Origin: Akkermansiaceae bacterium
Lineage (GTDB): Bacteria > Verrucomicrobiota > Verrucomicrobiia > Verrucomicrobiales > Akkermansiaceae
Direction of reading: 5' to 3'
DNA: 32,773 bases
Assembly (NCBI GenBank): GCA_903878115.1
Contig: CAIRGO010000152.1
Span: 1 to 32,773, forward strand
This document shows, piece after piece, positions 7,097-11,077 of this stretch (position 1 is its first letter; each line of letters begins with the position of its first letter). The position numbers and the translations under genes were made by a program. The notes under the pieces are model-generated. The model searched no databases and was not told the origin of the DNA. It saw only the letters and a program-made list of their open reading frames with translations.

Positions 7097-7588
7097 GTGT
7101 GTCCAAGTGCACTAAATAACATGTCATTTGTCCTTCCTAAATATCACGGCTCTCAAGAGCACAAAGTGGATCCGAAATATCGGATGTCCATTCCTGTGGC
7201 TTGGCGTCCTGAGGATGGTGAGCAATTGATTCTACAAAAGCTTTCCAAGGATGGCATTCCGTTCATTCGCGCGCTCTCGGTATCGGCATTCGAAGATGCC
7301 GTGAATGCAATCAACAATCACACAAGTCGGACAGTGGGCGAAATACGTGAAGCGATTGCGTATCTTTATGAAACGATCTTAGTCGTCACTCTGAATGCGC
7401 AAGGTAAGTTACTGATCCCGAAAGACTGGAGCAATCAAGCCGGCATCGAAGCCGAATCAACCGTCAAACTCGTGGGTCGCGGCAATTACTTCGATATATT
7501 CAACGCAGCAGACCACGCGAAAGTCAGTGAAGCACAGGCCGCACGTGTAAGCGCATCGATGGCAGACATCGGAGTATTTTCTTCCTAA
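7097..7588 (+). CDS. mraZ: MraZ, transcriptional regulator at head of dcw cluster
   Basis: MraZ is a DNA-binding regulator with two SpoVT/AbrB-type half-domains that usually controls the dcw operon it heads. Here the first half-domain contains HKVDPKYRMSIPVAWR (about residues 22-37), and the second contains VVTLNAQGKLLIPKDW (about 97-112). The 163 residues are close to the usual 140-160. A GTG at 7097 is chosen because AAGGTG (7085-7090) lies six bases before it. The ATG at 7121 (residue 9) has no such site. The gene lies at the start of an uninterrupted same-strand run of cell-wall genes, after a 340-base leader. The next annotated start (rsmH) is 256 bases later, an unusually wide gap for this pair. 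Confidence 0.94.
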   Translation: MCPSALNNMSFVLPKYHGSQEHKVDPKYRMSIPVAWRPEDGEQLILQKLSKDGIPFIRALSVSAFEDAVNAINNHTSRTVGEIREAIAYLYETILVVTLNAQGKLLIPKDWSNQAGIEAESTVKLVGRGNYFDIFNAADHAKVSEAQAARVSASMADIGVFSS

Positions 7589-7687
7589 CAACATGCAAAT
7601 TTCATTTTACCATCCAAAATCTACTTCCCTACACCTGCGGGTGGCGGCGTGGATGATGTTGGTAAAAAACGACCACTTTTTGGCTGG

Positions 7688-7722
7688 GCGGCGAGAAGGG
7701 CAAGGGACGGCCCTTCTCCCGC
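7688..7722 (+). repeat. Palindromic hairpin element, copy 1 (between mraZ and rsmH core)
   Basis: GAGAAGGGC (7693-7701) and GCCCTTCTC (7710-7718) pair perfectly around the loop AAGGGACG (7702-7709). After one unpaired C (7692), four more pairs form between 7688-7691 and 7719-7722. It is preceded by TGGCTGGGCGG, which also precedes copy 2. Confidence 0.85.
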
Positions 7723-7844
7723 TATTCTTTTCCTATACGGTATCGTGCCTAACGCGCTTAGGACTTTTACCGAATTTTGCGAGTGCATCCATAACGCCCG
7801 CAAGCTTTTCGCACGCCACGGGCGAGCAGAGCGAAATCATTCTT

Positions 7845-8813
7845 ATGGCTGGGTGGGATGGGGAGCAAGGGACGGCTCCCCTCCCACCATATCATCTTCC
7901 CGTACTTCCGTTAGAAGTAGCTCAATGGATGAACGCTCAACCAGGAGAGTGCATCATCGATGGCACTCTTGGTGGAGGTGGGCATTCTGAAATTTTTCTC
8001 GAAGCAAAAGCAACAGTGCTCGGCATTGATCGAGATCCGCAAGCAATTGCACATGCATCAAAACGCCTACAACGCTTCGGTTTAGCATTCCAACCTTGGC
8101 AGGCAAATTATTCACAGATGGCAGATCATCCTGGACTTAGCGATGGTCGTAAAGCTGATGGAATATTGTTAGATATAGGAGTTTCCTCTCATCAACTGGA
8201 TAGTGCTGCGCGCGGATTTTCTTTTCAAAAAGATGGGCCTCTTGATATGCGCATGGGACCGAATGCACCACGCACAGCAGCAGAACTGGTGAACGAAGAG
8301 AGCGAAACAGAAATCATTCGCATCCTCAGAGAATTTGGTGAAGAGCCACAGGCACGCCGCATTGCGCAATTGATTGTGCAGCGACGAGCTGTGAAGCCAT
8401 TCACTCGCACGGGTGATCTTGCAGGCACCATCGAACAAGCGATCGGACGGCATAGCAAAACTCATCCTGCCACTCGAACGTTTCAGGCGATTCGCATGGC
8501 AGTGAATGAAGAACTGGCATTGCTTTCAAAAGCGTTAGACGCCTGCATTGCCTGTTTAAAACCAGGAGGACGATTGCTGGTGATTAGTTTTCATAGTCTT
8601 GAAGATCGTCTGATTAAACAGTTCATGCAGCACCGAGCACGAGCGACTATTGACGACCCGACTTGGCCAGCGCCGCGGGATAATCCGGAATACTACTTCA
8701 CCCTGCCGGTGCGAAAATCCATCAGTGCAGGGAAAACAGAACTCTCTCAGAACACAAGGGCCCGTAGCGCTAAGCTTCGGGTCGCCGTGCGTAATAATCG
8801 AACCACTTTTTAA
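7845..8813 (+). CDS. rsmH: 16S rRNA (cytosine-1402-N4)-methyltransferase RsmH (MraW)
   Basis: RsmH methylates C1402 of 16S rRNA using S-adenosylmethionine. The family opening HLPVLPLEVAQWM is at residues 17-29 and the SAM-binding loop GTLGGGGH at 40-47. GILLDIGVSSHQLDSA, GFSFQKDGPLDMRM, FQAIRMAVNEEL and GGRLLVISFHSLEDRLIK follow in the normal order. From the ATG at 7845 the protein is 322 residues, close to the usual 310. The same frame stays open back to an ATG at 7593, which would give 406 residues. That extra 84-residue part has no RsmH homology that I recognise and carries one hairpin element, so I chose 7845. Neither start has a good ribosome-binding site. Codons 3-15 come from the second hairpin element. 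It lies next to the FtsL-like gene, three bases away. Confidence 0.92.
   Translation: MAGWDGEQGTAPLPPYHLPVLPLEVAQWMNAQPGECIIDGTLGGGGHSEIFLEAKATVLGIDRDPQAIAHASKRLQRFGLAFQPWQANYSQMADHPGLSDGRKADGILLDIGVSSHQLDSAARGFSFQKDGPLDMRMGPNAPRTAAELVNEESETEIIRILREFGEEPQARRIAQLIVQRRAVKPFTRTGDLAGTIEQAIGRHSKTHPATRTFQAIRMAVNEELALLSKALDACIACLKPGGRLLVISFHSLEDRLIKQFMQHRARATIDDPTWPAPRDNPEYYFTLPVRKSISAGKTELSQNTRARSAKLRVAVRNNRTTF
7852..7888 (+). repeat. Palindromic hairpin element, copy 2 (start of rsmH)
   Basis: GGGGAGC (7860-7866) pairs with GCTCCCC (7875-7881) around the same loop AAGGGACG (7867-7874). After one unpaired T (7859), seven further pairs form between 7852-7858 and 7882-7888. The stem sequence differs from copy 1 but pairing is kept. 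The flank TGGCTGGGTGG matches the flank of copy 1. The element lies within codons 3-15 of rsmH as annotated here. Confidence 0.85.
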
Positions 8814-8816
8814 CTT

Positions 8817-9158
8817 ATGAACCAATCACGATCTGCTCCTCGTTCTTACAGATTTATCAACGGAATCATCGTTGTCGCCATCGGCATTGCAGTTGCCGGT
8901 GCCGTCAATTTCGTGACCTATCGGAATCAACAAATCCAGACCGCGCGCGATATTGAAAGCACAGAAAAACGCATCACTTCGCTCATGCAAGACGAAATCC
9001 CCAGCCTGCAAGCAGAGATCGAGCGTCAATTGATTCGCTATGATATCCGTGAAAAGTTGCGCCAAAATGGAAGCGACCTAGTTCCCACACCTACCGAGCA
9101 CTTAGAAGTCATCAATTTGGTAGATACATCAACCGCGTCAAAGAATAGCCGTCCATAA
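8817..9158 (+). CDS. FtsL-like bitopic membrane protein
   Basis: This small protein of 113 residues sits exactly where ftsL is found, between rsmH and ftsI. It has a short basic cytoplasmic N-terminus and one membrane segment (about residues 15-36, FINGIIVVAIGIAVAGAVNFV). A probable coiled coil follows (about 38-78, with ESTEKRITSLMQDEIPSLQAE) and then a short polar tail. That is the FtsL layout: a divisome protein whose periplasmic coiled coil binds FtsB and helps activate FtsW-FtsI. FtsL sequences are too divergent to prove identity by eye, so the call rests on layout and position. It is separated by two bases from ftsI. Confidence 0.75.
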   Translation: MNQSRSAPRSYRFINGIIVVAIGIAVAGAVNFVTYRNQQIQTARDIESTEKRITSLMQDEIPSLQAEIERQLIRYDIREKLRQNGSDLVPTPTEHLEVINLVDTSTASKNSRP

Positions 9159-9160
9159 TC

Positions 9161-11077
9161 ATGCTACGATCATTCACCGCCCGCTGCACCATGTTGTTCC
9201 TGCTGATTGCAGCAGGATTCAGCACGCTGTCGTGGAGATTGATCGATATTCAATATTTTAATCGCAAACGTTACGTAGAAGCAGCGAAAAATTTCAGCAC
9301 AACACGGACATTTTTGCCCGGTGGTCGCGGACATATTTTGGATTGTAATGATGAGTTGATCGCGCGGAGTGTTACGCAGGCAAAACTACGCGTGGATCGC
9401 TACGATTTAAATAATCCAGAACTAGCAGCCTATGCACTGGCATGGGATGAGCTGAGCACGCAAGCAAGTTGGAACAACCTAACAGATGAAGCCAAGCGCC
9501 GACAATTGCGTCCGCTAGTGAAAAAAATGTTAGCCACGGAAGATAAAGAAATACTCAAACGAAAGCATCTCGCCTATGCCATCGGGCATCTTGCTCCGGC
9601 TCTGCGCATCAAGCGTGAAGAGCTACGTGAACGCATTGAAAAAAATCCTTCAAGCATGTGGTTCGTTGTAGAGCGCAACATGGAAGAGGAGACGTATGAA
9701 CGAGTGCAAACCGCGATTGATGAGCATAAACTGCAAGGGTTTAGTTTGGAAAAAACCGCGCGCCGCAACTACGCATCACCAGAACTAGCTAGTCACGTGA
9801 TCGGTTATACGATCATTAAAGAATTTTCCTTCGCCAACGATTCTTTTGAAAAAGAAGTAGGTGTTTTTGGCATAGAGTCCGCCTACGAGAGCATTCTGGC
9901 TGGGAAAGATGGCTACCGCGTGAGTAGCACTAACGGAAAAGGTTTGCTCATCACACCAGAGCCAAGTGTGACGATGCCACCGCGTCCCGGGATGAACGTG
10001 CAACTCACGCTCGATATGGAAATTCAAAGTATCATTCAAGACGAGCTTGTAGCTGGTCTGAAGGAATATGATGCGCCACGTGGTTGCGTGATTGTGATGG
10101 ATCCGAAGACTGGAGGCATTCTTGGCCTTGCCAGTTATCCAACGTTTAATCTTAATACTTTAAAGGACATTGCCACGAACGGAACAAATTTTGCCACACA
10201 AATGGTCTATGAACCAGGCTCCACTTTTAAGGTGATCGCTGCCGGTGCTGCCTTCAATGAAAAACTAGTCACACCACAGACTCCTATTTACTGCCACAAT
10301 GGACTTCTCAAGCAAGGAACTCTCCAACTGAAAGATCACCACCCTTACGGCACATTAAGCGTGCAGTGGCTATTAGGAAAATCAAGCAATATTGGAGTCT
10401 ATAAAATTGCCTCGTTGGTAGGCATGCCACGATATTTCGATTATGTGAGAAACTTCGGATTCGGTCAAAAAACAAACATCGATCTCAGCGGTGAAGTGAA
10501 AGGACGCTTTCGCGAAACTGATAATCCTACCACGTTTTCCAGCATGACTTTCGGCTACGCGATCAATGTCACACCATTGCAAATTGCCTGCGCCTACTCA
10601 GCGATTGCGAACGGAGGGAAGCTATTGAAGCCACAGATTCTCAAAGCTGTGATTGCGAATGATGGCACTCCCATTCGCGAAGTCACGCCAGAAATCGTGC
10701 GTCAAGTAATGACGAAAGAAGCCGCCAGCAAAGTCCGCCAAAGTTTAGCAACAGTTGTGAGCAAACAAGGCACCGCCGAGTTGGCTGCAGTCCCTGGTTT
10801 TGAAGTTCTTGGAAAAACGGGAACGGCTCAAAAATTTAACCCAGCATCAGGGAAATACTATGATCATCGTTATACCGTTTCTTTTGCCGGCATGTTGCCT
10901 GCTGCTGATCCAGCTTTTGTCTGCATTGTTGTCATTGACGACCCACAAACCAATACTGTCTCGCGTTACGGCGGCACCATCGCTGCCCCAATCTTTGCCA
11001 AAGCATCGGCGCGTATTTCCAAACATCTAAATCTTATTCCTACGGAACCCGTAGTACCCAGCATCGTCGATCAATGA
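9161..11077 (+). CDS. ftsI: Septal peptidoglycan transpeptidase FtsI (penicillin-binding protein 3 class)
   Basis: FtsI cross-links septal peptidoglycan as partner of FtsW. The N-terminal membrane anchor spans about residues 8-26. The dimerisation domain starts with the class B PBP motif RGHILDCNDELIARS (56-70). The transpeptidase domain carries all three active-site motifs: STFK (354-357, catalytic serine 354), SSN (408-410) and KTGTA (552-556). The 638 residues are in the normal class B range, and no PASTA domain is present at the C-terminus. The stop overlaps the murE start as ATGA (11074-11077), so the two genes are translationally coupled. Its place after the FtsL-like gene and before murE favours FtsI over an elongation-type PBP2. 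Confidence 0.95.
   Translation: MLRSFTARCTMLFLLIAAGFSTLSWRLIDIQYFNRKRYVEAAKNFSTTRTFLPGGRGHILDCNDELIARSVTQAKLRVDRYDLNNPELAAYALAWDELSTQASWNNLTDEAKRRQLRPLVKKMLATEDKEILKRKHLAYAIGHLAPALRIKREELRERIEKNPSSMWFVVERNMEEETYERVQTAIDEHKLQGFSLEKTARRNYASPELASHVIGYTIIKEFSFANDSFEKEVGVFGIESAYESILAGKDGYRVSSTNGKGLLITPEPSVTMPPRPGMNVQLTLDMEIQSIIQDELVAGLKEYDAPRGCVIVMDPKTGGILGLASYPTFNLNTLKDIATNGTNFATQMVYEPGSTFKVIAAGAAFNEKLVTPQTPIYCHNGLLKQGTLQLKDHHPYGTLSVQWLLGKSSNIGVYKIASLVGMPRYFDYVRNFGFGQKTNIDLSGEVKGRFRETDNPTTFSSMTFGYAINVTPLQIACAYSAIANGGKLLKPQILKAVIANDGTPIREVTPEIVRQVMTKEAASKVRQSLATVVSKQGTAELAAVPGFEVLGKTGTAQKFNPASGKYYDHRYTVSFAGMLPAADPAFVCIVVIDDPQTNTVSRYGGTIAAPIFAKASARISKHLNLIPTEPVVPSIVDQ

Follow-up and report, generated by a model that had tools for sequence, protein, structure and literature searches.

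Two hairpins within the rsmH reading frame

The stretch of DNA analysed here (the window, 32,773 nt from an Akkermansiaceae bacterium) carries two hairpins with different stems and the same loop at the junction of mraZ and rsmH, and it raises the question of what keeps such a pair in place. An earlier note, made on the letters alone, had proposed a mobile or a regulatory repeat family. Hairpin 1 (7687..7723, + strand; -27.1 kcal/mol, z -3.45) and hairpin 2 (7852..7888, +; -30.0 kcal/mol, z -3.62) refolded as that note had described them, with an identical 8-nt loop AAGGGACG (7702..7709 and 7867..7874, both +) and a single bulged base each, located on the 5' arm in both cases; each stem counts 14 bp, and the folding energies lie about 3.5 SD below those of shuffled sequences. 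The left flank common to both, TGGCTGGG(C/T)GG, was likewise recovered, as TGGCTGGGCGG at 7681..7691 (+), with one variable column among 18 copies from the genus and GCT-GGG codons in 18/18, and as the conserved TGGCTGGGTGG at 7846..7856 (+). Exact matches to GCAAGGGACGGC occur in the window at the two hairpin sites only, in agreement with the claim that the window holds no other copy. A U-rich tract, TATTCTTTTCC (7723..7733, +), comes after hairpin 1 and is AATTTTTTCC-like in the remaining species of the same genus.

What the earlier note had not reported is that both hairpins lie in frame within rsmH (mraW). The rsmH frame (7593..8813, +) begins with an ATG at 7593, 4 nt past the stop of the mraZ-like gene of the dcw cluster that lies directly 5' of it (7097..7588, +; ORF of 163 aa; Pfam MraZ, 24.7 bits with a cut-off of 23), and it is free of stops from there, across both hairpins, to the methyltransferase domain (7893..8789, +; Pfam Methyltransf_5, E=3.8e-95, residues 101-399). 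An N-terminal extension of about 100 residues thereby holds both hairpins, whose offset of 165 nt, or 55 codons, places them in the same frame: hairpin 1 translates to FLAGRREGQGTALLPL and hairpin 2 to LMAGWDGEQGTAPLPPYHLPV, the latter abutting the RsmH start YHLPVLP, with LMAGWDGEQGTAPLPP just ahead of this conserved motif. No Pfam domain was found in the extension, and the peptide looks disordered in the AlphaFold model, where pLDDT is below 50 for nearly all of residues 1-99. In 7/9 same-genus genomes (the window, at 7664-7669, and loci L011-L016), 6-10 consecutive A, read as Lys codons, precede hairpin 1 by a short distance and are a possible slippage site; L017 and L018 do not have this run.

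Downstream of rsmH, the cluster continues over 8817..11077 (+) with a small ORF without a Pfam match (8817-9158, +) and an FtsI/PBP-like gene (9161-11077, +). Deletion of mraW is tolerated in Verrucomicrobium spinosum, in contrast to most of the remaining cluster genes, which are essential there (PMC12283558); thus, the target of an element located at the start of rsmH could be the genes that follow. A second RsmH homologue lies outside the dcw cluster of the window's own genome (L158 1103-2206, -, G000:C164; 367 aa, 38% identity over the matched part), and two matches are also present in the other genomes of the genus. Given this second homologue, the dcw copy may serve a division-specific role.

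Conservation within the genus

Exactly two copies each were found at the mraZ-rsmH junction of the window's own genome and of 8/9 same-genus relatives; in the ninth (G002), the contig starts inside rsmH and does not include the junction. The spacing between the hairpins ranges from 81 to 165 nt, and every value is divisible by three. Among the 18 copies the stems diverge, while the loop and the TGGCTGGG flank are almost constant. Standard pairs occupy 98.1% of the stem cells, which represent fewer independent events than their count since some homogenisation has taken place between the copies of a genome, compared to 92.9% in shuffles and 53-66% when the stems are slid; double changes are found at 7/12 stem pairs, and 0/500 shuffles reach either value. 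The stems of the orthologous loci therefore stay paired, with no loss in the relatives of the kind that the earlier note had named as refuting, and the suggestion that selection acts on the folded shape was borne out. The partial homogenisation is seen in four species, where the two copies of a genome are nearly identical to each other but unlike those of the sister species (0-1 differences within versus 1-2 between).

A swapped pairing between hairpins 1 and 2, which would need interchangeable arms, was rejected because the copies differ in 5/9 species. In hairpin 2 of G006 (L016), the 5' arm now consists of some 16-17 consecutive G, and pairing with the C/U-rich 3' arm is still possible.

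A longer array in the sister clade

In the sister clade, comprising Luteolibacter, Haloferula and related MAGs, the same junction bears alternating hairpins of two types, A and B. In Luteolibacter pohnpeiensis (L040), Haloferula rosea (L043) and many MAGs, these hairpins occupy an rsmH N-terminal extension of about 100-350 codons. Type B, with the order TTTTCNTGGCTGGGCGG, stem, CTCGGGACAG, stem, is the homologue of the window hairpins, which belong to this type; in type A, the loop measures 17 nt and typically reads GCTYCTGGCTGGTTGTC, and the stem is composed of 7 bp and 6 bp with a 5' bulge between them. Each array holds 1-7 type A copies, the loops of which are mostly 105 nt (35 codons) apart, although spacings of 102-129 nt also occur. 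A type A covariance model, whose E-values are rough and whose hits within one array are not independent, detected 2-7 copies in 38/145 genomes of the family, drafts among them, belonging to only two genera, and the same two genera alone were recovered over 240 genomes of the order. The matches form one cluster per genome, also in closed genomes, with exceptions where a contig end apparently cuts the array. Arrays at or near contig ends were noticed in the drafts G059, G141 and G115, as expected if repeats break assemblies.

In the RsmH tree, the window's genus and the array bearers form a single clade (support 0.956) with no array-free member sampled; as far as the RsmH trees show, the array arose once. 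Wherever the junction could be read in a sampled species of the clade, the array was there, and no loss was seen. Moreover, the RsmH proteins of the array species are only 52-65% identical to that of the window, yet the loops are nearly invariant. In our estimation, the chances are evenly divided that the pair in the window is a short form of an array of structured RNA which is specific to this clade and lies in the translated 5' part of the rsmH coding sequence.

Evidence for selection at the RNA level

When the stem-pair changes between 12 sister pairs were counted, 75 kept the pairing (49 one-sided and 26 two-sided) and 28 broke it, compared to about 24 kept and 99 broken under random mutation of the same hairpins. 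In 10 sister pairs, with the loop set defined on one member per pair, the loops changed at 3/705 positions versus 604/5,355 elsewhere. Furthermore, the covariation score of type A is 0.413 versus 0.198 in shuffled data, a value reached by 0/500 shuffles.

An alternative is a tandem palindrome without a function of its own, expanded and homogenised by slippage, hairpin template-switching and gene conversion and tolerated because it stays in frame at a dispensable RsmH N terminus; template-switching is an established mechanism that could restore stem pairing without selection. Such a neutral origin would be in keeping with the wide variation in copy number and with the copies of a genome being often more alike than orthologues, as in the four species described above, and it is also favoured by the predicted disorder of the extension and by the dispensability of mraW in V. 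spinosum (PMC12283558). However, if the palindrome were neutral, the loop should be the first part to decay, whereas it persists nearly unchanged across the RsmH divergence reported above, and none of the sampled clade species with a readable junction has lost the array. We therefore regard a neutral palindrome as unlikely.

The U-rich tract behind hairpin 1 suggests a second alternative, namely, a transcription attenuator in which hairpin 1 and the tract would form a conditional intrinsic terminator when the leading ribosome lags, limiting rsmH and fts. In 9/9 same-genus genomes, the tract starts 1-3 nt past hairpin 1 and counts 5-8 T in 12 nt, and the dcw leader of Rhodobacter sphaeroides is under terminator control (UpsM, PMC5089854). 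On the other hand, a terminator scan makes no call at hairpin 1, and no long U tract directly follows the stem of hairpin 2 or those of the type A and B hairpins in the sister clade. In addition, any purely structural role, be it terminator, RNase barrier or ribosome slow-down, is insufficient because it covers the stems and not the invariant loops. We consider attenuation unlikely.

The array is almost certainly translated, as in-frame stops are absent from the 18,987 nt of array in 47 species, while the other two frames average 1.9 and 1.7 stops per array. Some species have no Met near the methyltransferase domain, so that translation would have to start far upstream, which is a caveat for any reading based on a translated array. 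It could be argued that selection acts on the peptide, a repeat with a function of its own and 35 residues per unit (FLAGR..LGT / VRAASGWLSAR), and that the nucleotide pattern is a by-product, and both the strictly kept frame and the recurrence of AGR, GT and GW residues in all species would agree with this. Nevertheless, synonymous positions are frozen against the codon use of the gene itself: LGT is coded CTC/GGG/ACA in 119, 120 and 122 of 125 cases (gene body, GGG 21% and ACA 9%), the AG of AGR is coded GCT/GGG in 48/48 (gene body, GCT 9%), GW is coded GGC/TGG in 151/153 and the QGT of the window's genus is coded CAA/GGG/ACG in 16/16. The extension also folds better than at least 149/150 synonymous-codon shuffles in 14/18 species, compared to 2/18 for a gene-body segment of equal length. 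Amino-acid changes outnumber synonymous codon changes in 9/10 sister pairs, and the extension peptide changes freely. Together with the low pLDDT and the absence of a Pfam domain, these data make a peptide repeat very doubtful.

The constraint acts on RNA structure and sequence: stem changes are compensated, loops and flanks are nearly invariant, the frame is kept and a single locus is involved. In particular, the near-invariant unpaired motifs are UGGCUGG and GGGAC, the latter within AAGGGACG or CUCGGGACAG. Their density is 11.7 per kb in the extension versus 0.11 outside it (mraZ, rsmH body, neighbours and part of the stretch upstream of mraZ). This roughly 100-fold difference also bears on the possibility of DNA-level binding sites, for instance, for MraZ, which is suggested by the position of the array next to mraZ and by the G-rich direct repeats TGGCTGG within it. 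Elsewhere in bacteria, MraZ is known to bind direct repeats that precede mraZ. Here, the loop motifs are also rare in the part of that upstream region covered by the count, and recognition of double-stranded DNA would not need compensating stem changes; binding at the DNA level is highly improbable.

As to mobility, the window's own genome (a draft of 4.41 Mb, 95% complete, in 331 contigs) yielded no further hairpin copy by exact motif, gapped pattern or a covariance model based on the 18 copies, so that the genome-wide covariance search proposed in the earlier note gave the outcome which that note had named as refuting a dispersed repeat family; one additional 12-mer match lies on another contig and is devoid of the TGGCTGGG flank. 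In a pattern search of 57 relatives, all the matches bearing a window-type hairpin are at rsmH, and the remaining ones look like chance. The RAYT-type gene that the note had proposed to look for does have candidates, two Y1_Tnp genes, but their contigs (C261 and C132) carry no hairpin copy. Hence, a REP/REPIN-like palindrome moved by a RAYT (Y1) transposase, to which the conserved-loop hairpin and the two Y1_Tnp genes could point, was rejected with practically no residual probability, as neither pattern nor covariance model revealed dispersed copies in the own genome or in 145 family genomes and the hairpins are always orthologous, in frame and confined to the mraZ-rsmH junction. Between the two branches left by the earlier note, the regulatory one, with RNA-binding sites, becomes the best reading, and the transposase-mobilised one falls.

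Comparison with known systems

The mraW RNA motif (RF01746), an Actinomycetales element (PMC2864571) observed in Corynebacterium (PMC3890552), is likewise a candidate structured RNA tied to mraW/rsmH, but it belongs to a different phylum, and the window hairpins differ from it in that they sit inside the coding frame and form arrays. No Rfam match, RF01746 included, was obtained at the gathering threshold or at a relaxed E<=1. The dcw 5' leader of R. sphaeroides (UpsM), with its intrinsic terminator and Hfq/RNase E processing, has also been proposed as an RNA element controlling the dcw cluster (PMC5089854). It is, however, located 5' of mraZ, whereas the array described here is 3' of mraZ and inside rsmH.

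RNAs of the CsrB/RsmZ type share with the array the many hairpins with an invariant G-rich loop, their GGA loops binding CsrA, the classical reader of such loops; they are, though, separate RNAs, while the array is part of an mRNA and has a second loop type, UGGCUGG, without GGA. CsrA itself was rejected as the loop reader since the csrA gene was found in 0/34 genomes tested, with control genomes being positive. Rickettsia palindromic elements are also palindromes within ORFs that keep the frame, but they are dispersed over many unrelated genes, different from the single locus occupied by the array. Finally, the REP/REPIN-RAYT systems (PMC3733652, PMC3116915) have in common with the hairpins the short, imperfect palindromes with conserved parts, whereas the present ones are neither dispersed nor extragenic and are orthologous in all species.

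No description of such an rsmH hairpin array emerged from the literature searched, and Pfam likewise contains nothing like it. A covariation-supported structure fixed at the head of a gene is what is expected of a structured cis-regulatory RNA, and it is what we found; its location in a translated frame, its tandem copies in variable number and its two alternating loop types are unusual for an RNA of this kind. Overall, the evidence speaks against a mobile repeat and in favour of an RNA control element that has not been described before and that is contained in a protein-coding sequence.

A putative recognition platform on the division operon mRNA

The invariance of unpaired UGGCUGG and GGGAC on variable stems argues for a sequence-specific recognition of single strands, and the arrangement of the hairpins in arrays suggests multivalent binding. 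On these grounds, we take as the most likely reading, with an even chance of being right, that the array acts in cis on the mraZ-rsmH-fts mRNA as a platform for multivalent recognition, through which the expression of rsmH and of the division operon behind it would be tuned, a reading in which the partner and the regulatory effect are what we infer from the observed constraint on structure and sequence. The loops would be read by a sequence-specific RNA-binding factor, which may be a protein, perhaps even RsmH, or else an RNA. Occupancy of the loops would control rsmH and the division genes that follow at the level of translation, stability or read-through. Ribosomes moving along the extension would repeatedly clear the hairpins and let them refold, which could tie the output to the translation rate. 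The number of hairpins per species, from 2 to >10, would be odd for a precise switch and counts against the recognition platform. More tentatively, and with somewhat less confidence than for the platform, these arrays might represent a new class of regulatory RNA, consisting of tandem in-frame alternating hairpins, freely variable in number but with every loop conserved, and presenting two invariant single-stranded motifs, which a clade-specific factor would read to set the output of the division operon.

Since searches are directed at the regions between genes, conserved RNA structures within bacterial coding sequences tend to be overlooked. The present array, fixed at the head of a division operon in a clade of about 50 sampled species, shows clear nucleotide-level constraint over a translated frame. 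It raises the testable question of which factor reads loops with UGGCUGG and GGGAC when CsrA is absent, and whether this reader links cell division to the translation rate or to the modification of ribosomes by RsmH.

Observations outside the clade

Excess folding of the rsmH N-terminal extension was found outside the clade in 2/18 loci, no more than in the gene bodies themselves, and is thus not general to the order. A lone R1 match in another genus (G066, E=0.0014) was treated as chance: the hairpin is G-rich but lacks the AAGGGACG loop, and the 2.7-kb stretch that contains it yielded no rsmH motif. In the rsmH N-terminal extension of L032 (G031), the short blocks TTTACTGGATAA and TGGAACACTGGAA recur about 180 nt apart at the mraZ-rsmH junction, and folding is unusually strong (z -4.6). 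At the mraZ-rsmH junction of G020, also outside the clade, two unrelated hairpins (L156 703-726 and 881-904; C1:264602-264625 and 264780-264803) share an identical 24-nt apex, CGGGATGACTTGGAGGGAGTCCCG, while their basal stems differ in sequence and compensate; the genome has no further copy, and the arrangement may have arisen here a second time, independently.
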